IMG/VR virus record: IMGVR_UViG_3300031999_000055
Location: 1-43,699 of that record
Strand: one strand, 5' to 3'
DNA: 43,699 nt
DNA from: a virus
Numbering within the stretch: the stretch's first letter is position 1; each line of letters starts with the position of its first letter. The position numbers and the translations under genes were made by a program. Shown here in pieces: positions 4,543-43,699 of the stretch. Under the pieces are notes generated by a model. It was not told the DNA's origin. It did not search any database and saw only the letters and a program-made list of their open reading frames with translations.

Positions 4543-6361
4543 TAAAGAGGAATTAAATATCTTATATTTGCCACAAAGATTATCAGCATTGGAAGTAGCA
4601 AATATGATAAGATTACCTCTCCGTTCTAATTTTCAAGAAAAAATTGATTTTGATCTGACTCCATATTTAAGAATGCCTACTTCATTAATTGGAAAAAATC
4701 ATGTTAAAGTAATGGGTATTATAGCACCCACTCAATCTGGAAAAACTGTATGGTTACAAATTGTTGTTGCAGACTCAATTGAACAAGATCCAGGTACTTT
4801 ATTTTATGTGAATCCAGATGAGAAATTATCTAAACGGGGTATGAAAGAAAAAGTCATAGATATGATTTTACATACTCCAGAATTGAAAAAGCATGTAAGA
4901 TCAATACGGAATGTTTCTAAAGCGGGAATAGTATTAGACAATATGACTATATATCCAGCATGGGCTGGTAGTCTTGCTTCAATAAGTTCAACTCCAGGAA
5001 AACGAGCTATATTAGATGAAGTGAGATTAATGAAATTAACTATAGGTAAAGAATCAAATGCCATAAAACTTACGCAAGATAGATTAACTACATATTATGA
5101 TCTTGGATTAGCACAGTTATATATGGTTAGTACTCCATCTGTAGAGGGTGATTTATTGCATCAACAGTTAAAAGTTCCTGGTACTCTAGTTTTATGTTGG
5201 CACAGTAAATGTTGTAATTGTGGTAAAGTGGAAATTTTAGATTTTTTTAGAAATATAAAAGTTATTGATAGTGTTGTTAGATGTGTTTGTAGTGATTGCG
5301 GTAATTATTATCAAGATAATGATCAGAAAAGAAAAATGAATTCTCTAGGATTCTATGCGCCTCGTGGATCACTTGAACTACCTCTCATTTTACCAGAACG
5401 TGTATTTTTTTGGTATGATAGTTTGGTTTCTCCATTTAGAACTTTTAAAGCAATTCATAAAGAGTATATAAGCACTAAAGATAGACTTCATGATTATAAA
5501 AATTTCTGGCAATGTTGGTTAGCTAAATTTTGGGAAGATGATATTAGTAAAACATCAGTAGATAATTTACATCAAAAATGTGTACAGGATAGGATAGGTA
5601 CAATACCTAATTGGTGTTTATTATTAACTTGTGGTATAGATACTCAAGATGATGGATTTTTTGTAGTTGTACGCGCATGGGGAAATGATAAATTAACTAG
5701 GTTAGTGGATGCTTTTTTTATTGAATGTAAAATTAAAATAGCAGATTCAGAAGAAATTAAAAAAATACTTAAACGTGAAGTTATAAATAAAATATATCTT
5801 ACCGAGTTAAATGTTAAGTGGAAGATTGGATTAACTGCAATAGATACCGGAGGCCATAGAACAAAGGAAATATATAAAGCTACAGTTGATTTTGAGAGGT
5901 TTATTTGGATTAAAGGGGCTCATGAATCTCAAAAGATTACTATAACTTATAGTTCAGAATATAGATTATATTTAGTTAGAACAGTTGAATATTTGGATGA
6001 AACAGAAGATAAATCGGAACAACCATATTGGGAGTTACCCAAAAATATTCCAGAAGACTATCTTAATCAGTTTGTTAATTATAGAAAGATTAAAAAACAA
6101 AATAATATTACTGGTGAAGATAGAGTTATATGGGTAAAAAAGGGACAAGTTGATTATAGAATGGCTGATATACATTCTGTTATTTGTTTAGATATTCCTA
6201 CAGATATTGGTAAATTTAGGTATGAATTAAATCAACCTAATTTTATATATAATCCTCTTAAACGATTTGAGGAAATAAAAATACAAGAAGATCATGAAAA
6301 GGTAATACATAGTGAGGAAGATAATGAAAATAATTATGATATAGGTTCCTTTAAATGGTAA
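4526..6361 (+). CDS. Terminase large subunit (GpA-like)
   Basis: A 611-residue protein with all parts of a lambda GpA-type packaging motor. Walker A is APTQSGKT (67-74), Walker B is RAILDEV with the acidic pair near 164-165, and a Cys cluster (C229-x2-C232 and C255-x2-C258) could bind zinc. The C-terminal nuclease domain has GIDTQDD (D372) and TAIDTGGHRT (D440), with a later DYRMADIHSVICLD helix. It cuts concatemers and pumps DNA into the prohead by ATP hydrolysis. Length is near the usual 600-650. It overlaps the small subunit gene and is followed by the GpW-like gene after 10 bases with a strong AAGGAG site. Confidence 0.95.
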   Translation: MKLKISKEELNILYLPQRLSALEVANMIRLPLRSNFQEKIDFDLTPYLRMPTSLIGKNHVKVMGIIAPTQSGKTVWLQIVVADSIEQDPGTLFYVNPDEKLSKRGMKEKVIDMILHTPELKKHVRSIRNVSKAGIVLDNMTIYPAWAGSLASISSTPGKRAILDEVRLMKLTIGKESNAIKLTQDRLTTYYDLGLAQLYMVSTPSVEGDLLHQQLKVPGTLVLCWHSKCCNCGKVEILDFFRNIKVIDSVVRCVCSDCGNYYQDNDQKRKMNSLGFYAPRGSLELPLILPERVFFWYDSLVSPFRTFKAIHKEYISTKDRLHDYKNFWQCWLAKFWEDDISKTSVDNLHQKCVQDRIGTIPNWCLLLTCGIDTQDDGFFVVVRAWGNDKLTRLVDAFFIECKIKIADSEEIKKILKREVINKIYLTELNVKWKIGLTAIDTGGHRTKEIYKATVDFERFIWIKGAHESQKITITYSSEYRLYLVRTVEYLDETEDKSEQPYWELPKNIPEDYLNQFVNYRKIKKQNNITGEDRVIWVKKGQVDYRMADIHSVICLDIPTDIGKFRYELNQPNFIYNPLKRFEEIKIQEDHEKVIHSEEDNENNYDIGSFKW

Positions 6362-9530: not shown

Positions 9531-9548
9531 GTGGATTACTTTAACTAG
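9531..9548 (+). promoter_or_regulatory. Dispersed 18-base motif, before decoration gene
   Basis: GTGGATTACTTTAACTAG, 17 of 18 matches to the consensus, between the scaffold stop and the AAGGAGG site of the decoration gene, 24 bases before the ATG. Truly intergenic, so not explained by coding constraint. Confidence 0.8.
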
Positions 9549-25706: not shown

Positions 25707-26252
25707 TTATATTAAATCTAATAATTTTTTATATATCTGTAAACACAATCTTGCATCAAATTCTGCTCTATGTATTTGTTCACTGCATTTAAAAAATTTA
25801 CTTAAATTGTGTAATGATAAATTTTCTATATCTAGTTTTCCTTTATCTTTTAAGGCTTGTGCTAATATCACAGTATCTCTATAATATCTATTAAATATAT
25901 TATTGTATTGCATCCCTAAAAATAATTGTAAGAAAGATTTGTCAAAACTATAATTGTGCCCTAGTGGTATTAATTTGATTCCTTCTAATACTTCTTCATG
26001 CCATTGACATAGAGCATTTCTTACTTGACTTGGTACAGCTTCTTTTTTTAATTCTGTTAGTGATAATTTGTTTTTTTCCAGTGCTTTAGGATCAGCTAAT
26101 TCTGGACGCATAGGTCTTACTTTACATGAGAATGTATGTAATGGTAAAAAAAATTCATCGTGGATTATTAAACTTAGTTCTATTATTTCATGAGTTCCTG
26201 CAATTAAACCTGTGGTTTCAGTATCTATTGCTACTCCATATATTTTATTCAT
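25707..26252 (-). CDS. DnaQ-like 3'-5' exonuclease (DEDDh)
   Basis: A 181-residue exonuclease with all three motifs: IDTETTG (D10, E12), GHNYSFDKSF in the middle, and HRAEFDA (H161, D166) near the end, which marks the DEDDh class. It removes 3' nucleotides, for proofreading or for degrading DNA or RNA. The length is normal for a stand-alone epsilon-like domain. Its start lies inside the last codons of the primase-helicase gene (8-base overlap), so the two are translationally coupled. The family A polymerase of this phage appears to keep its own exonuclease domain, so this enzyme may have a separate role. Confidence 0.88.
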   Translation of the reverse strand: MNKIYGVAIDTETTGLIAGTHEIIELSLIIHDEFFLPLHTFSCKVRPMRPELADPKALEKNKLSLTELKKEAVPSQVRNALCQWHEEVLEGIKLIPLGHNYSFDKSFLQLFLGMQYNNIFNRYYRDTVILAQALKDKGKLDIENLSLHNLSKFFKCSEQIHRAEFDARLCLQIYKKLLDLI

Positions 26253-28923
26253 TTGATATTTCTCCTTTTTCTGTTAAAGATTGTTGTACTAATCTTCTAT
26301 CTTTTAATACCCATTTAAAGTCTTTAAAATCAGCATTTAAATTTATAGTTAAATTTCCTAACATTAATTTATTATCTTTCCCATATAATCCTTTTGGAAT
26401 AGAAGATATTTTAGGAAATTTTAAGGAAGTTTTTCTTTGTGTCCAGAATGAGGTTTCTGTTGGATGATTAACAGTTAACCACATCTGAAAGTATGTTTGG
26501 AATTCCTCTATTGAAATTAAATGTCCCCAAGCATTTAATGTTTTTTCTTTTATAAATTGTTCTAATGGATTAAAATTATCTTCCATTACTTCTAATTTTA
26601 TTTCTGTCTCTAAACATGGTAAATTTAATCTTCCTTCAGGTTCAGGTAATTCATAATGCAATAATTCATATAAAAAAGCAGCAGATTCTTCTTCTAAATA
26701 TTCTAGTAGATGATGTTTAGGAATTTCTTTTGTTATTTTATTTACCTCTATTACCACTATTCTGGTGTCTCCAGGTAATACTAGACAATATTTGGCATCA
26801 TTCGCACACTGCATCCAATGTGTTGAATTTGTTATTTCATATACATTTTGGTATTTAGTATTAATAGATATGGTTTTACCCGTCACCCAATCTTTCATTC
26901 TATTTAAAGCTAAACTACTTCTACTTAAATCAGTTTCTTCAATGACACATAATACTGCATTACTTAATTCACTATTAAAACCGCTTTGAGATTTAAGTGC
27001 TTGATCCGCTCTAGTATAACCTATTCTATTTTTAAATAATAAACTTAATGCTTCATGGAGTGTACTTTTACCGGTTTTTTGTTCCCCAAAGAAAAATAAA
27101 TAGGGTAATTGTTCTGTAGGTTTTTGAAGCATAAAAGCTATCCAAGCAAATAAATAATCTGATCCATCATTAATATTATTTTCAAAACACCACTTGTTAG
27201 TTCTAACTACTTCATCTAATCCACTACCCAAATGTTCTAACAAACTCCACCAATACTCTACTTTTCCTTGTATTGGTTTAATTGAAAATTGTGCAGCATC
27301 TTTATTCCATTGTCTATTACCTAAATATTCATCTTCAAAAGGTTTATTAACTAGTATCCAGGGATCAAGTATGGTTTTTCCAATTAACTGTTCTATTTCT
27401 TGGCGTGAATATCCTAACATTTGACTTACTAGCACTGATACTACATTACTTTTTGAATGAGATACCCATTCAGTATTTATATTTATAAACCATCCTGCCT
27501 CTATTTTATTACTAATAATATGTCTTATTAATGTATCTTGTTGGGTTATTTCTTCATATTCTTTTTTATATAAAAATACCTTTGTCCAATATTTTCTTTC
27601 TCTTAAAAATCCTTCAATAAGTTCAGGGTCTTTATCTAATAATTCTATTAAAATTATTAATTTATCTCCCTTACTTTTAATTTTAGTAGATCTATTAGTA
27701 AATATTGGTGGATAATTATATTCTAAATTAAGTAATTTTAAAGTTTTTGTTACTTGTTCTGCATTAGTAAATACATATTCACCTTTTATATTTTCTTTTC
27801 CATCATTAAATATGGCAGCTTCATGTATTGTTGGTTCAGCATTATAATAACATTTAGTCCATCCGTGTTCATCAGTTATCCATGTTTTTGCCTCTGCTAT
27901 TCTATGTCCATGTCTACGTACTATAAAAGCTCCATTTTTTAGTGGAAAAGCAAAACAATTTTGTACACTAGTTCCGGAACTATTTGTTTCAAATATCCCT
28001 TTAAGAGATAATGCTTTATAACAATCTCTTAAATCAAAAGTATGACAAACTAACATATTATAATCAGTATCCCACCACCAATCTAATTTAGCATTATTAC
28101 TTATCCATTTCAATATTTTATTATGGTCATTATCTAAAAGAAAACTTTTAATAGATGAACTTAAATTTTCTAATTTTTTATCACCACTGTGAGTTTTCTT
28201 TTTATTTCTTAAAACAACTGGTATATGTTCTAACCAGTTTTTAGGTATTTTTGTGATGGGGAATGGAGTTCCTTGTCTAAGATATGTTAATCCATTTGTA
28301 CCTTCTTGTTTTCTATGATAACACCATAAAATACCACCACATGCGTCTACATTAGCATAAAAATTAAAATTTATTTCTATAGATAATATTGACAGTAATG
28401 CTCTAGCTAGTGCAGCATGTTCATTATGATTTTTTATAGGGAAGGGTTTATCAAAAAATAAATATAAATGAATTCCTTTACCTGATGTAGAACGAAGTAA
28501 AGTAATCCATTCTACATTTGTTGTTCTATTTTTTAATTCATTTAATTCCTCAAATGACATGCCTTCTTTATGGTTGGTTATTGAATCAAAATCATAGCCT
28601 ACCCATAAAGATTGTTTATTTTTCCAATCCCATCCAGTCATGCCAATACCCTCTACATGTTTTTCTATATCAAATTTTATATCAGTATCAATATATTCAG
28701 AATTATCTGTATCAGCCTGCCAGGGTATCCTGAATGATTTCCAAGTTTCTTTAGTTTTATCATCCTGGAAACCTCTCCAAGTTTTTCCAAAGTATTCACC
28801 TTTTATTCGTCTACCATTATCTTTAGCTACATTAACTTGAACTTCCATATTTTCATAATATAATTGTGCAATAGGTGAAACTTGAAATTTTAAGAAATTT
28901 TTTATGGCTTCTGTTTTTTTCAT
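26245..28923 (-). CDS. Primase-helicase (AEP-type primase plus SF3-like helicase)
   Basis: An 892-residue fusion. The N-terminal part has primase-polymerase signatures: WVGYDFDS (acidic pair near D111/D113) and LLRSTSGKGIHLYLFFDKP (about 143-160). The C-terminal part is an SF3/D5-like AAA+ helicase: Walker A GEQKTGKST (613-621), Walker B AVLCVIEETD (about 656-665), a sensor-like STHWMQCAND and an arginine DTRIVVIEV downstream. It would unwind the fork and prime synthesis. The two-domain arrangement is common in phages and mobile elements. The start follows CTGGAG. A near-motif copy (26160-26177) lies in the next gene, not here. Confidence 0.88.
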   Translation of the reverse strand: MKKTEAIKNFLKFQVSPIAQLYYENMEVQVNVAKDNGRRIKGEYFGKTWRGFQDDKTKETWKSFRIPWQADTDNSEYIDTDIKFDIEKHVEGIGMTGWDWKNKQSLWVGYDFDSITNHKEGMSFEELNELKNRTTNVEWITLLRSTSGKGIHLYLFFDKPFPIKNHNEHAALARALLSILSIEINFNFYANVDACGGILWCYHRKQEGTNGLTYLRQGTPFPITKIPKNWLEHIPVVLRNKKKTHSGDKKLENLSSSIKSFLLDNDHNKILKWISNNAKLDWWWDTDYNMLVCHTFDLRDCYKALSLKGIFETNSSGTSVQNCFAFPLKNGAFIVRRHGHRIAEAKTWITDEHGWTKCYYNAEPTIHEAAIFNDGKENIKGEYVFTNAEQVTKTLKLLNLEYNYPPIFTNRSTKIKSKGDKLIILIELLDKDPELIEGFLRERKYWTKVFLYKKEYEEITQQDTLIRHIISNKIEAGWFININTEWVSHSKSNVVSVLVSQMLGYSRQEIEQLIGKTILDPWILVNKPFEDEYLGNRQWNKDAAQFSIKPIQGKVEYWWSLLEHLGSGLDEVVRTNKWCFENNINDGSDYLFAWIAFMLQKPTEQLPYLFFFGEQKTGKSTLHEALSLLFKNRIGYTRADQALKSQSGFNSELSNAVLCVIEETDLSRSSLALNRMKDWVTGKTISINTKYQNVYEITNSTHWMQCANDAKYCLVLPGDTRIVVIEVNKITKEIPKHHLLEYLEEESAAFLYELLHYELPEPEGRLNLPCLETEIKLEVMEDNFNPLEQFIKEKTLNAWGHLISIEEFQTYFQMWLTVNHPTETSFWTQRKTSLKFPKISSIPKGLYGKDNKLMLGNLTINLNADFKDFKWVLKDRRLVQQSLTEKGEISNE

Positions 28924-33011: not shown

Positions 33012-33029
33012 CTAGTTTAAGTAATCCAT
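33012..33029 (-). promoter_or_regulatory. Dispersed motif fused to ligase ribosome site
   Basis: ATGGATTACTTAAACTAG on the - strand, 17 of 18 matches; its final AG is the start of the AGGAG ribosome site of the ligase gene. Confidence 0.85.
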
Positions 33030-33499
33030 TATTTAGTTAATTGTTTTACTTCATTTACCGTTAAATTATAATTTTTTAAAATACTTTCGCGTTTGGTTAT
33101 TATGTATTTATCCAATATTTCCTTTATTTTATTGGAGGTTAAATGTAATTGTTGTGCTATTTGTGAATTAGTTAATTTTAAATTATGTAATGATATTATG
33201 GTTTCTTTTGTTTTATTTGATATTTCTACGGAATTTAATAACCTATATAATCTTGATCTGCTTATTTTATATATATCAGACAGGTAATCTAATTTATATC
33301 CGAATTTGTATAATTTATATAATTTTAATATATTGTATTCATTTATTTTTTCTCGTGGTCTTATTATTTTATAGTATTTTCTTAGAATATAATATACATT
33401 AGCGGTTTTTATTTTATATTTGAGTGCTAAATCTCCAACAGTTAATCCAGATATATAATTCGCTACCAATGGTTCTTTTATTAAATCGTATTTATTCAT
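33029..33499 (-). CDS. Triple helix-turn-helix DNA-binding protein
   Basis: A 156-residue basic protein with three successive helix-turn-helix units: about 16-42 (ISGLTVGDLALKYKIKTANVYYILRKY), 62-90 (LYKFGYKLDYLSDIYKISRSRLYRLLNS) and 100-132 (IISLHNLKLTNSQIAQQLHLTSNKIKEILDKY). Three such units can read a long asymmetric site of about 15-20 bases, which fits the 18-base dispersed motif. Two copies of that motif flank this gene (33012-33029 and 33533-33550), consistent with autoregulation. It overlaps the methyltransferase gene by eight bases. It could instead be a homing-endonuclease-like or resolvase-like DNA-binding remnant, since no catalytic domain is present. Confidence 0.65.
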   Translation of the reverse strand: MNKYDLIKEPLVANYISGLTVGDLALKYKIKTANVYYILRKYYKIIRPREKINEYNILKLYKLYKFGYKLDYLSDIYKISRSRLYRLLNSVEISNKTKETIISLHNLKLTNSQIAQQLHLTSNKIKEILDKYIITKRESILKNYNLTVNEVKQLTK

Positions 33500-34271
33500 A
33501 AAATTCTCCTTTTTCCACCTGTGGTGGTGTAATTAGTTTAAGTAATCCATTAATACCCATTTGGGCTATTTTACAATATTTTTCACTTTGTTCTATTCCT
33601 ATAAATCTTCTTTTAGTTTTGATACTGGTTATTGCTACTGTTCCTGAACCAGAAAAAGGGTCAAGTATAATATCATTAACGTAAGATAACAATTTAATAT
33701 TTTTTTCAGCAAAATCAATACTAAAATTTGCTGGTGTTAATCCTTTAGTTTCTGTTTTGATATTCCAAATCCCATGTGTAAGGGCTATGAAATCTTTTTT
33801 TGAGATATCACTAATGCCTTTTTTATCTTTTTTCCACCTTTCTTTAAATAGTATCAATACCCCTTCAAATGGCGAATTAATATATGGTGAACTTGCTGAC
33901 AGCCAGCTACCCCATGCTGTTCTTTTTGTTAATGTTGGATCAGTCCATATAGCACAGGAATGGTGTTTAAAACCAATAGACAAAGCAATGCCATTTAAAT
34001 TAAACAGGGGTGTCTCTCTGTGCTTAGAATTACCTAGTGATAAATAATGGTTTAATGACATTCTTCCATCCGGTTTAAGAACACGATAGCATTCTTTGAG
34101 CCATTTAGAACACCATTCATAATATAACTTCCACGGTTTTTTATCACTATAACCATCATATTCTATTCCAATATTGTAAGGCGGGCTTGTGACAATTAAG
34201 TCAATATAATTATCTGGTATATTTGGAAGTATACTTAAGCAATCTCCACAGTATATTGTATTCAGTTGCAT
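33492..34271 (-). CDS. DNA methyltransferase (SPPY, N6-adenine or N4-cytosine)
   Basis: A 259-residue methyltransferase of the beta order: catalytic motif IV TSPPYNIG near residues 28-35 comes first, and the AdoMet-binding motif I DPFSGSGTVAITSIKTKRRFIGIE follows in the C-terminal part. SPPY enzymes transfer methyl to an exocyclic amino group. No partner restriction gene is visible, so it is probably an orphan enzyme protecting phage DNA from host restriction. The C-terminus (NGLLKLI) is encoded by a dispersed motif (33533-33550). Its leader fuses motif and ribosome site (TTAAAGGAG). Confidence 0.88.
   Translation of the reverse strand: MQLNTIYCGDCLSILPNIPDNYIDLIVTSPPYNIGIEYDGYSDKKPWKLYYEWCSKWLKECYRVLKPDGRMSLNHYLSLGNSKHRETPLFNLNGIALSIGFKHHSCAIWTDPTLTKRTAWGSWLSASSPYINSPFEGVLILFKERWKKDKKGISDISKKDFIALTHGIWNIKTETKGLTPANFSIDFAEKNIKLLSYVNDIILDPFSGSGTVAITSIKTKRRFIGIEQSEKYCKIAQMGINGLLKLITPPQVEKGEFYE
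33533..33550 (-). promoter_or_regulatory. Dispersed motif in methyltransferase 3' end
   Basis: ATGGATTACTTAAACTAA on the - strand, 16 of 18 matches, coding for NGLLKLI at the end of the methyltransferase and 33 bases before the start of the HTH gene. Confidence 0.7.
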
Positions 34272-39300: not shown

Positions 39301-39912
39301 CTATATTGTTATAGTTATATTTTTTTCTTTGCATAATGCCTTAAATAACTCTAGGTCATTTAATTGTGGTTTTCCTGATATATATATATCTTTATTTTCA
39401 TTAAAATAAAAATCTCTTTTTATATTATCATTAAATGGGCATATATTATTATTATTTATCCAGTCTTGCATTTTTTCTCCTCCACATATTATTGCATCTC
39501 GCCTCATCAACTCTAATGTTAAGTCCTTACTTAATATTCCCCACTGAATATTATGTAATAACTGTGAAATTTGGTATATTGCTTTAAATAAATTTGCTTT
39601 AGATAAGTTTGCATTAAATAAATTTGCATAAGATAAGCTTGCATTAGATAAGTCTGCATTAGATAAGTTTGCATTAAATAAATTTGCATAAGATAAGCTT
39701 GCATTAGATAGGTCTGCATTAGATAGGTCTGCATAAGATAAGTTTGCATTAGATAAGTCTGCATTAGATAAGTTTGCATTAGATAAGTTTGCATTAAATA
39801 AATTTGCATTAAATAAGTCTGCATTAGATAAGTTTGCATTAGATAAGTTTGCATTAGATAAGTTTGCATAAGGCGCTAAATCATACTCTTGTCCATTTAT
39901 TATTTTTCTCAT
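39301..39912 (-). CDS. Pentapeptide-repeat protein
   Basis: A 203-residue protein with 19 consecutive A(N/D/S)L(S/F)(N/Y) pentapeptides from about residue 16 to 110, which should form a right-handed quadrilateral beta-helix. A conserved tail follows: [21 protein letters not shown]....[18 protein letters not shown]...[20 protein letters not shown]. Some such proteins mimic DNA and bind gyrase, but many have unknown roles. The DNA is a 15-base tandem array with a near-identical 60-base block repeated (see the repeat entry), so the array is young and may vary in length. Site AGGAG. Confidence 0.85.
39595..39868 (-). repeat. 15-base tandem array in pentapeptide gene
   Basis: Units of type TTTGCATTAGATAAG (+ strand) repeat about 19 times. 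The block with ATAAGCTTGCATTAGATAAG at about 39608-39667 recurs 60 bases later with only a few changes. Another frame across the array also stays open, which is a by-product of the repeat. Confidence 0.85.
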
Positions 39913-40404: not shown

Positions 40405-41070
40405 TTATCTTTGTCTTTCTTCTGTTTTAACATCTTCAAAAACCTGTTGGTTGTTGAAAATCTTTAACTGATCTTCAAGTTTTTCTATCTCTTTTACTTT
40501 ATTGGGTGTTGGAGTTACATCCAACACATACCATACATTTTTTGCCCATGTTTTTTCTACTGTTTTTATAATACAAATAGTAGTTTTATTGGACAATTCC
40601 AATAACTTGAGTCCTCCTTTCAATAACTTCTTTTTAGCAAACAAACTACCGAATTTCTGAATATTGGGTAAATATACAAGAACATTTATTCCATCCGCAA
40701 TATCCTCACCTGCATGTTTTTGTACAAAATTCTTATATTCAGTTCTATCCCTGAAAGGAATATCTGACTCAGGTAATATGAGAGATTCTTTAAATTCTTT
40801 AGTTTCATGATCTAAAGCCATAACTTGATAGTTATAAGCTAAAGCCACTGCTTCTATTGATGAGCCCAACGATACATCCTCTAGAAAAAAATCTCCTAAT
40901 TTAGCTTTACCTTCTGCAAAATGGTCACTGGTTTTATAAGTGACCTTAAGTGGTGATACAAAGGTATTTTCCACCAGCATAGGTAAATTTTTACGAGCAT
41001 TGGGTGATAAAAGATTACTATTATCTCCATTGGATATAGTACTTACACTTTTTGTAATATTTTTTTTCAC
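40405..41070 (-). CDS. Conserved-looking protein of unknown function
   Basis: A 221-residue protein that begins with GTG (AAAGGAATCTATT before it). The first 30 residues are flexible. The body reads as a beta-rich domain with conserved-looking phrases: GKAKLGDFFLEDVSLGSSIEAVALAYNYQVMAL, IADGINVLVYLPN, and TWAKNVWYVLDVTPTP. The C-terminus is charged (EKLEDQLKIFNNQQVFEDVKTEERQR), as in some single-strand DNA-binding proteins. That role is possible in a replication cluster, but it is not shown. The codons are richer in G and C than those of the polymerase and helicase genes; with the next two genes it forms a compositional block. Confidence 0.5.
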   Translation of the reverse strand: MKKNITKSVSTISNGDNSNLLSPNARKNLPMLVENTFVSPLKVTYKTSDHFAEGKAKLGDFFLEDVSLGSSIEAVALAYNYQVMALDHETKEFKESLILPESDIPFRDRTEYKNFVQKHAGEDIADGINVLVYLPNIQKFGSLFAKKKLLKGGLKLLELSNKTTICIIKTVEKTWAKNVWYVLDVTPTPNKVKEIEKLEDQLKIFNNQQVFEDVKTEERQR

Positions 41071-41362: not shown

Positions 41363-42352
41363 TTATTTTTTTGGAGCTTCTACTTTATAATTCTTTTGTA
41401 CTAGTGCTGCCCTCCACTTTTCCAATTTGTCGGCTTCACGACTTTCTTTGCGTGCTTTCTGTTTAAGTTCTTTTTCCCTTTCTGCATTGTCAAATGCGTT
41501 TTTACGGATTCTTGCCGATTGGTCATCGATCTGGAAAAGTTCTTGCATGATATTGTATCGAGTTTCAAGAACTTTATTTTTCTTGTCCCCAAAGAACTCC
41601 TGTTCCGACTTTATTAGTTTAGCCAGAATTTCTTCCTTTGATAAGAGTTTAGGAGTAAGTTCAAATACTTTTTCTTTCACAATTCCACGAGCCGCTGCAC
41701 GTAGGTTGTCTAACTCACTCGTTACGTCTATTGCAAATTGCTTTGCATTTGTTACAGCAGCCTTTTCAACCCAAAGTTTTAGATCTTCTACTGGAAGTTG
41801 TTTCAGGTCTGCGAGTGCAATAAGATTTGCAATTGATACTTTACCTGTTTCTGCCATTTTCGTAATCTCTTCCGGTAAATGAAGAGTTTTGAACAGTTTA
41901 AACATGTGTTGTTTACCTATACCTGCTAATTTCGACAATTCGTCAATTGTATATTTTCCTTCTGTGGCTACTTTATATAAAGCCTCAATATATTGACGAC
42001 TGGTGGTTTTATGAATTTGAAAATTACCGGCAATTTGGCTGGTCAGAACGTCAACCGGACTCATCTCTTCCTTAAGTTGGAAGTTATATTTTTCAGGAAA
42101 TTTTCCCTGTTCAACTAATTCTTTCATTGCCGTAATTCTACGGGCACCATCAACCACTATATATTTGCCGTTTTTGAGTGTAACTGTAGGTACATTAAGT
42201 AATCCACGCTGGTTTATATCTTCCATGAGGATTTGAATATTCTCATCTTCAATATTATGTGTCCGCAGGGAATCCTCTGAATATTGAATATCCTTTATCG
42301 GCAGTGTAATCATCTTGTAGTTAGTGAATGGTTTAGTTTTTTCATTTGACAT
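41363..42352 (-). CDS. ParB-like DNA-binding protein
   Basis: A 329-residue ParB/Srx-fold protein. The N-terminal domain has LPIKDIQYSEDSLRTH, INQRGLLNVPTVTLKNGKYIVVDGARRITAMKEL and an N..IHKTTSRQYIEAL segment. A helix-turn-helix (YTIDELSKLAGIGKQHMFKLFKTLHLP) follows, then a long charged C-terminal coil rich in Lys and Glu. The usual GERR is GARR here. There is no ParA gene, so it is probably a phage regulator or DNA organiser rather than a partition system. Its DNA is richer in G and C than that of neighbouring genes, and the block 40405-42352 may be acquired. A dispersed-motif-like sequence at 42190-42207 codes for RGLLNVP. Confidence 0.85.
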   Translation of the reverse strand: MSNEKTKPFTNYKMITLPIKDIQYSEDSLRTHNIEDENIQILMEDINQRGLLNVPTVTLKNGKYIVVDGARRITAMKELVEQGKFPEKYNFQLKEEMSPVDVLTSQIAGNFQIHKTTSRQYIEALYKVATEGKYTIDELSKLAGIGKQHMFKLFKTLHLPEEITKMAETGKVSIANLIALADLKQLPVEDLKLWVEKAAVTNAKQFAIDVTSELDNLRAAARGIVKEKVFELTPKLLSKEEILAKLIKSEQEFFGDKKNKVLETRYNIMQELFQIDDQSARIRKNAFDNAEREKELKQKARKESREADKLEKWRAALVQKNYKVEAPKK

Positions 42353-42552: not shown

Positions 42553-43044
42553 TTATTTATTAAGTGGATTATTTATACTAGTATTCTTTTTCACTAATCT
42601 TATTTGGTTTTTTAATTCTTTAAAACATATTTCATATATCTCTTTTGCATAACGATTATAATTATAATTATGAAGAATATCTGTCCATTTTTGATATATA
42701 GAATTGTTATCATAACAACTATCTAATATACAATTACAACACCTTTTTATGGTAGTTATAGAACTATCTACCTTATGATATTTTTGACATATAGAATTGT
42801 TATCATAACAACTATCTAATATACAATTACAACACCTTTTTATGGCAGTTATAGAACTATCTACCTTATGATATTGGCATAAAGGACAACCATTAAACAT
42901 ATTTGAAATATATTGATAATACTTAGAATAGGTCTTACTAGTATATCTATTGGTATATATATCATACCAAACTAACATGGTAAGGGTTAAGAAGTCTATG
43001 TAGGTGGTAGGTTCTTTATAATTGATTTTTAACTTGAATTTCAT
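42553..43044 (-). CDS. Cys-rich protein with internal tandem duplication
   Basis: A 163-residue basic, Tyr-rich protein. The centre begins CPLC and holds two consecutive 31-residue units, YHKVDSSIT(A/T)IKRCCNC followed by ILDSCYDNNSI(C/Y)QK. The Cys pairs (CPLC, CCNC, C) suggest zinc-binding sites. The N-terminal 45 residues and the C-terminal helical part (about 115-163) are not repeated. It is the first gene of the right arm, reading from the control region, so it is probably expressed first. The ribosome site AGGAGG is fused to a dispersed motif. No family is recognised. Confidence 0.65.
   Translation of the reverse strand: MKFKLKINYKEPTTYIDFLTLTMLVWYDIYTNRYTSKTYSKYYQYISNMFNGCPLCQYHKVDSSITAIKRCCNCILDSCYDNNSICQKYHKVDSSITTIKRCCNCILDSCYDNNSIYQKWTDILHNYNYNRYAKEIYEICFKELKNQIRLVKKNTSINNPLNK
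42564..42581 (+). promoter_or_regulatory. Dispersed motif in 3' end of Cys-rich gene
   Basis: GTGGATTATTTATACTAG on the + strand, 16 of 18 matches, inside the 3' coding end of the Cys-rich gene and 23 bases before the possible microprotein start. Confidence 0.7.
42688..42873 (-). repeat. 93-base tandem duplication
   Basis: Copies at 42688-42780 and 42781-42873 differ at only two positions (TA versus CA near the start, GT versus GC in the second half). In-frame doubling of a Cys-containing unit, probably very recent. Confidence 0.9.
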
Positions 43045-43052
43045 GAATCCTC

Positions 43053-43070
43053 CTAGTTCAAATGATTCAC
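43053..43070 (-). promoter_or_regulatory. Dispersed motif fused to first right-arm ribosome site
   Basis: GTGAATCATTTGAACTAG on the - strand, 14 of 18 matches; its final AG begins AGGAGG, seven bases before the ATG at 43044. Confidence 0.6.
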
Positions 43071-43086
43071 TCTTACTATTTTTTTG

Positions 43087-43114
43087 GGATTATTTGAACT
43101 CGTTCAAGTAATCC
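43087..43114. promoter_or_regulatory. Head-to-head motif pair 1
   Basis: GGATTATTTGAAC, two-base TC spacer, GTTCAAGTAATCC: two opposed motif half-copies forming a near-perfect 13-base inverted repeat with one mismatch. The TTGAAC version differs from the single copies (TTAAAC). Confidence 0.8.
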
Positions 43115-43205
43115 ACTATGCACATTTTAATATTAATTGATAATAGGGTAATTAGATATAATATAATATAATTTTTATATCTATGCAAGAATAAAAAAAT
43201 ATTTT

Positions 43206-43237
43206 GTGGATTATTAGAACTCGTTCAAGTAATCCAT
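43206..43237. promoter_or_regulatory. Head-to-head motif pair 2
   Basis: GTGGATTATTAGAAC, TC, GTTCAAGTAATCCAT: same arrangement as pair 1, about 120 bases away, with the same two-base centre. A dimeric protein reading both halves is the simplest explanation. Confidence 0.8.
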
Positions 43238-43287
43238 CAATTTTCGGACATTTTGAAATTTTTTAAAAAAGTCAAAAACTATTTTCA

Positions 43288-43349
43288 TATATATACTATA
43301 TATACTATATATACTATATATACTATATATACTATATATACTATATATA
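43288..43349. repeat. 9-base iterons
   Basis: ACTATATAT repeated six times with C at 43296, 43305, 43314, 43323, 43332 and 43341. Pure A/T apart from the C, so easily melted. Similar arrays are common at replication origins. Confidence 0.75.
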
Positions 43350-43514
43350 TATATTATATAGAGTAAAAATTTTTAAAATTATTTATACAAATAAATAATA
43401 AAGTATAATTATGTAAATAATTAATTATATTTATTTTATATCATTATTTATATAATTATACACATTAAATATTTAATTAAGTAATTATATATTCATATAG
43501 ACAAATTATATATT

Positions 43515-43560
43515 TATGTAGTTATATAAATAAATATAGATTTATTTATATAACTATATA
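43515..43560. repeat. Long AT inverted repeat
   Basis: GTTATATAAATAAAT (43521-43535), loop ATAG, and its exact complement at 43540-43554. Flanking bases extend the pairing to about 20 pairs with one G-T. Confidence 0.6.
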
Positions 43561-43585
43561 GCTATATAATTTATTTATTTATTTT

Positions 43586-43603
43586 GTGGATTATATAATC
43601 TAG
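43586..43603 (+). promoter_or_regulatory. Dispersed motif near right end
   Basis: GTGGATTATATAATCTAG on the + strand, 14 of 18 matches. The preceding ATTTT is identical to that before motif pair 2. Confidence 0.6.
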
Positions 43604-43699
43604 TAAATATATATATATAGTTTATATATAATAAAATCAAAGTTAGAATTAAAATTAAAATTAAAATTAAAATCAAAGTTAAAATTAAAATAAAATTTC

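Follow-up and report, generated by a model that had tools for sequence, protein, structure and literature searches.

The window analysed here, the whole stretch of 43,699 nucleotides, is a 43.7-kb record of an uncultivated tailed phage. Its rightward structural arm encodes the terminase and tape measure, and its leftward arm encodes PolA, a DUF5906 primase/helicase (26245–28923, minus strand), an SNF2 helicase, a ligase, a methyltransferase and a ParB-like protein. The latter, a 329-aa member of the ParB family (P0001; 41363–42352, minus strand) and the proposed binder of the sites analysed here, matched PHROG 4715 (ParB-like, E 1.5e-12). Between parB and a cluster of sites at 43053–43237 lies a 163-aa ORF with no assigned function (42553–43044, minus strand), which contains a 93-bp direct tandem duplication (42687–42872, 98% identical). 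On the other side of parB, a 221-aa protein of no known family (40405–41070, minus strand) is homologous to the parB-adjacent proteins of two relatives, G013 and G016. A pentapeptide-repeat protein is encoded by a 15-bp tandem repeat of 19 copies at 39579–39869. The window and a second virus record, IMGVR_UViG_3300031952_000067 (L016, G001), have an identical starting base and the first 400 compared bases are identical; by sequence, this suggests either a fixed genome end or a common assembly break.

Two inverted pairs with TC centres and GAAC inner ends, reported in an earlier note on this DNA, were confirmed upstream of the first leftward ORF. Pair 1 at 43087–43114 reads GGATTATTTGAAC-TC-GTTCAAGTAATCC (opposing copies of 27.2 and 16.6 bits) and pair 2 at 43208–43235, of the same geometry, reads GGATTATTAGAAC-TC-GTTCAAGTAATCC (24.8 and 21.3 bits). 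Each is a near-perfect 28-bp structure of two overlapping head-to-head motif copies, with 13-base arms around TC carrying 1 and 2 mismatches, respectively. When head-to-head copies at a 14-bp offset were scored window-wide, the opposing copy reached 27, 25, 21 and 17 bits here and fell below 0 at all other sites, in agreement with the claim that only this region has pairs. The pairs are nevertheless not unlike the single copies, as had been claimed: each arm is itself an ordinary copy, in which TC replaces the usual TA of singles, and what was taken for a special class of site is the point at which a genome-wide array peaks locally. Over 38 bp the two pairs and their flanks share 89% identity, so one pair may be a duplicate of the other. 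A fifth copy (43053–43070, minus strand) overlaps the ribosome-binding region of the first leftward ORF (ATG 43044). Together, the two pairs and this copy therefore place five copies inside 200 bp, a density reached nowhere else in the window (P = 0.0005 for five or more under random placement). The cluster adjoins a tract of 10% GC (43240–43699), and a single copy is found in this AT-rich right end at 43586–43603 (plus strand). Two repeat arrays were also seen there, a 9-bp tandem repeat (TATATATAC, 7.6 copies, 43288–43354) and a 6/18-bp TAAAAT array at 43632–43697, at the right end of the window.

A weight matrix built from the window defines the motif unit as ~18 bp, GTGGATTAcTTgAACTAG, with a flanking preference TaG...TT. 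The matrix gave 48 window matches at or above 16 bits vs 0.05 in Markov shuffles and, equally, GGATTAYTTRAACTAG with up to one mismatch was matched 16 times vs 0 for a reversed-pattern control. The 9-mer TTAAACTAG of the earlier note is weak when taken alone (4 copies vs 1.2 expected, a count reached by 2 of 100 shuffles), being the weak inner part of this ~18-bp unit. The whole array comprises about 50 copies across 1–43699 with a mean gap of 926 bp, on both strands, within genes and between them, and the pairs account for four of these copies. Spacing is more even than chance, with a coefficient of variation of 0.57 vs 0.93 for random placement (P 0.0005). The single copies are degenerate dyads, as judged from a mean reverse-complement self-score of -6 vs -28 for background.

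Gene starts are favoured: of the 50 window sites, 17 fall between genes or at gene boundaries vs 4.9% non-coding DNA (P 1e-10), and many of these precede a start codon by anything from a few bases to some tens. Examples are the intergenic copy at 9531–9548 (plus strand), 25–42 bp upstream of a start codon, and the right-arm copy at 33012–33029 (minus strand), just upstream of the start codon of the DNA ligase ORF. Copies inside genes include one in the large terminase (5364–5381, plus strand), where the same codon is kept in four relatives of ~50% identity, one inside the parB-like gene ~150 bp past its start (42190–42207, minus strand) and one inside the end of ORF 42553–43044, ~215 bp ahead of the start codon of the parB-like gene (42564–42581, plus strand). 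No significant orientation bias was observed within window genes (20 same, 13 opposite, P 0.30). Sixteen of the 20 same-strand copies are in one frame; a protein repeat was rejected as the source of the array because the other two consensus frames hold stops and because antisense and intergenic copies exist. Tandem repeats of 60/306 bp at 2076–2843, in a structural-arm gene, carry two site copies.

Alignments of the terminase and primase opened a large clade of uncultivated phages, with relatives of the primase encoded on 232 contigs; one relative was located in a Bacteroidetes MAG. When P0001, the polymerase and the helicase were used as single-sequence queries, zero or one near-identical relative was returned, INPHARED contained no close kin, and a phage record collection gave weak matches only. 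In relatives of ~50% identity, in-gene sites were found at the same codon and strand in 4/10, 7/16, 3/6, 3/4 and 9/20 cases, so that about 40–50% of in-gene copies are conserved in place vs a random expectation of 0.01–0.13 copies.

De novo k-mer and dyad scans revealed a lineage-specific dispersed motif in most of the clade members examined. The dyads number 50–150 per genome, at a density across arrays of one per 0.5–1.3 kb, and the commonest form is TGATT-N4/5-AATCA. The nearest relatives carry ATGGGTTACTTgAA as their dispersed motif, and further relatives carry the clean palindromes TGATTCCGGAATCA, TTGATTTAcTAAATCAA, TGAGTTAcTAACTCA and TGAGttTAaaCTCA. The motifs of G016 (TCTGGGTCGtc, 81 copies in 48 kb) and G013 (TCTAGGTnAA) are strongly asymmetric. 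GATT-N5-AATC occurs 109 times in 80 kb (z 48), and TGATTCCGGAATCA and TGAGTTAcTAACTCA reach z 45 and z 43, respectively; in control DNA z was at most 5.4. Of 11 genomes, 8 have their sites spaced more evenly than random placement would give, the remaining three (G013, G019, G027) being not significantly even. Across ten genomes, sites peak 0–80 bp before start codons with the majority still inside genes, and in relatives they are enriched between parB and the primase. The scans detected no array in some ParB-bearing relatives (G018, G020 and G021 among others). Other short palindromes are over-represented in one relative each (TCTATAGA in L028, CAATATTG in L062, CCTATAGG in L060) and perhaps form a second family of sites. 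The 208-kb contig G004 served as a control: 20 of its 22 matches fell in the first 22 kb, which is homologous to the window phage. The first ~24 kb of this contig (L029–L039) contain the structural arm of the phage and are followed by a GC step and unrelated, unannotatable long genes; the contig is either chimeric or a large element that has acquired a module. The only right-arm gene of the window with a match in it is the pentapeptide-repeat gene.

A ParB-type gene was found in 40 of 44 contigs. The clade ParB profile matches Spo0J (4.5e-31), Noc (2e-29) and KorB (5e-17), and the AlphaFold model of P0001 (pLDDT 90) has ParB-CTP, Noc and KorB as its best PDB folds. Both profile and model give P0001 the arrangement typical of the family, a ParB N-terminal fold followed by an HTH DNA-binding domain; the clade member L115 scores above the PF02195 and PF17762 cut-offs, and P0001 itself falls below the Pfam cut-offs. 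Its NTP-binding box GxRR reads GARR, and G69, R72 and N110 are invariant in 48 relatives. In the clade profile, box III has a degenerate ENxxR motif (aN.hk) that keeps neither the glutamate nor the arginine, and NTP gating is therefore uncertain. The match to ParB in G026 (C1:30958–31947) is crossed by one TAA codon, reflecting a sequencing error, a pseudogene or another cause.

Where a dyad was detectable, 25 of 26 ParB1 genes have a site at their own start, between -80 and +20 (P 3e-17), by far the most constant site position among core genes. Sites also lie at the start of the divergent primase (20/26) and of the core gene just downstream of parB (16/26), and occur at chance level only at the starts of the second ParB paralogue, PolA, helicase and exonuclease. 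The second protein with ParB_N and HTH_ParB domains (L115:3744–4604 and equivalents) is present in about 30 of 41 relatives and has no sites at its start. The closest site upstream of parB is not at its start but ~165–220 bp away in the window, G013 and G016. The recognition helix reads KSxxW..RLGL in phages with TGATT-type sites and differs in the window's subclade, where the motif also differs. Partial Mantel tests of motif against HTH gave r 0.23 (P 0.026) given the N-domain and r 0.21 (P 0.064) given the primase, and the co-variation of motif and recognition helix in these sequences is thus only suggestive.

These data bear on the proposal in the earlier note that the pairs set the switch for the early genes, which stands in part. 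A dimer-type site array does lie directly upstream of the first leftward-arm genes, and homologous sites in relatives occupy the start codons of parB and the divergent primase, where operators of an early switch would be expected. A sigma-70 scan returned fewer promoter-like sites than shuffles (12 vs 21), and the reading as sigma-70 promoters was rejected. A terminator was equally rejected, none being present at the pairs.

We consider that the pairs, the densest cluster of a genome-wide array, probably serve together with it as sites for a dimeric DNA-binding protein of the phage, most likely the adjacent ParB-family protein. From the combined analyses, the array is best read as a set of putative operators that double as loading sites for a ParB-type protein of the phage itself, which would act in a KorB- or Noc-like manner. 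The proposed scheme starts from the ~50 degenerate-dyad copies, even, on both strands, enriched at gene starts and conserved in divergent relatives, in a clade where most examined members have an array, with a dyad particular to each lineage, and nearly all have a ParB-type gene. It is strongly suggested that the ParB-type protein binds these sites, its own start codon being the most constant position, as in autoregulation. The protein would then load at a site, close as an NTP-gated clamp and slide, like KorB, Noc and ParB. This may allow genome-wide control of transcription, of parB and the primase first, and possibly the packing or protection of phage DNA. Because the cluster at 43053–43237 is upstream of ORF 42553–43044, which itself precedes parB, we read it as the equivalent of the parB-upstream cluster; its overlapping paired sites would form the main operator or loading cluster, controlling expression of the leftward parB operon. 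By position only, the core gene that follows directly on parB is a candidate clamp-locking partner. Several observations weigh against this explanation: the asymmetry of the G016 and G013 motifs is unusual for a ParB dimer, some ParB-bearing relatives have no scan-detected array and three arrays are not significantly even, the nearest upstream site is displaced from the parB start in the window, G013 and G016, the co-variation is only suggestive and the ENxxR motif is degenerate.

The closest parallel is KorB with its operators OB in plasmid RK2, where a protein with a ParB N-domain and HTH acts from dispersed dyad operators, near and far from promoters, to control replication and maintenance genes (PMC11790492). 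From the operators at which it loads, KorB slides over as much as 1.5 kb and exerts repression at a distance (PMC11790492); with a site every 0.5–1.3 kb, the whole phage genome is therefore within this reported sliding range. The positions of clade sites at parB and other gene starts would also fit autoregulating operators of the KorB type. Unlike KorB/OB, the present system belongs to a phage and not a plasmid, has 50–150 sites per genome, most of them inside genes, and no KorA was recognised. Noc of Bacillus subtilis is likewise a ParB-family protein without a ParA partner, with dispersed palindromes (NBS) of parS size (PMC8429893) and nucleation at 16-bp sites (PMC8429893), whereas here one site occurs per 0.5–1.3 kb of phage genome and sites are enriched at gene starts.

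It is unlikely that the array is instead of the stoperator type known from phage L5, in which a separate immunity repressor would act on asymmetric sites genome-wide and the right-end cluster would be the operator of an early leftward promoter. The layout is indeed that of cluster A mycobacteriophages, with a structural left arm, an early right arm and a right-end control region (PMC6550527), and these phages equally have tens of dispersed sites whose consensus drifts among relatives (PMC6550527); in L5, dozens of short sites are joined by extras near the right-end early promoter (PMC6550527). Stoperators of L5 are, however, 13-bp asymmetric sites, mainly in one orientation, bound by the HTH repressor of a temperate phage (PMC6550527), and relative to transcription most stoperators point the same way (PMC6550527). 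Here the sites are dyads, palindromic across the clade, with no clear orientation (20 vs 13 within genes) and a ParB-type gene nearby, and the genes conserved around the primase include no other recognisable core HTH repressor. No tyrosine integrase was found in 27 contigs, all controls being positive.

That the pairs mark a replication origin, the other suggestion of the earlier note, is improbable. As iteron-like initiator sites they would be well placed beside an AT-rich unwinding region, since the cluster adjoins the 10%-GC tract with its 9-bp tandem repeat, and the enrichment of relatives' sites between parB and the primase would suit an origin too. About 45 other copies, evenly placed and inside structural genes, are left unexplained by it. 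GC skew tracks gene direction in the window and so provides no independent evidence of an origin.

A ParABS-type centromere for plasmid-like maintenance is very unlikely. The protein fold and site size are those of ParB/parS, and a ParB-family protein adjoins a cluster of parS-like palindromes, but no ParA (PF13614) was found in any of 27 contigs, with 14 of 14 control genomes positive, and the sites are spread evenly over the whole genome instead of forming one centromere region. A ParA of a different family, or one supplied by the host, might nonetheless take part. The missing ParA and tyrosine integrase thus argue against partition and give no support for lysogeny. It is most improbable that the binder is another phage protein such as the three-HTH-like P0002 (33029–33499), whose tandem HTHs would suit an asymmetric ~18-bp site but which has no match at E 1e-4 or better in G013 and G016, array-bearing relatives of full architecture. 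The DNA methyltransferase (33492–34271), also without a match in these two relatives, was rejected as the cause of the array.

Many phages encode ParB-type proteins without ParA, and for most of these there is no explanation. Genome-wide ParB-type site arrays in phages were not described in the literature searched, subscription papers and preprints lying outside its scope. With the array read as sites of the phage's own ParB-type protein, the clade lets likely ParB DNA targets be read from dozens of genomes, as a natural series of diverged specificities, and offers a set of orthogonal candidate ParB/site pairs. Rather more speculatively, and on balance doubtful, the phages of this large, apparently lytic clade might coat the whole of their DNA with a ParB-type clamp of their own, loaded from 50–150 evenly spaced sites, a phage-coded chromatin that would regulate, compact or shield the DNA inside the cell and whose site specificity would diverge fast between lineages. 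The clade provides a testable case of ParB clamps as genome-wide regulators or coats in viruses.
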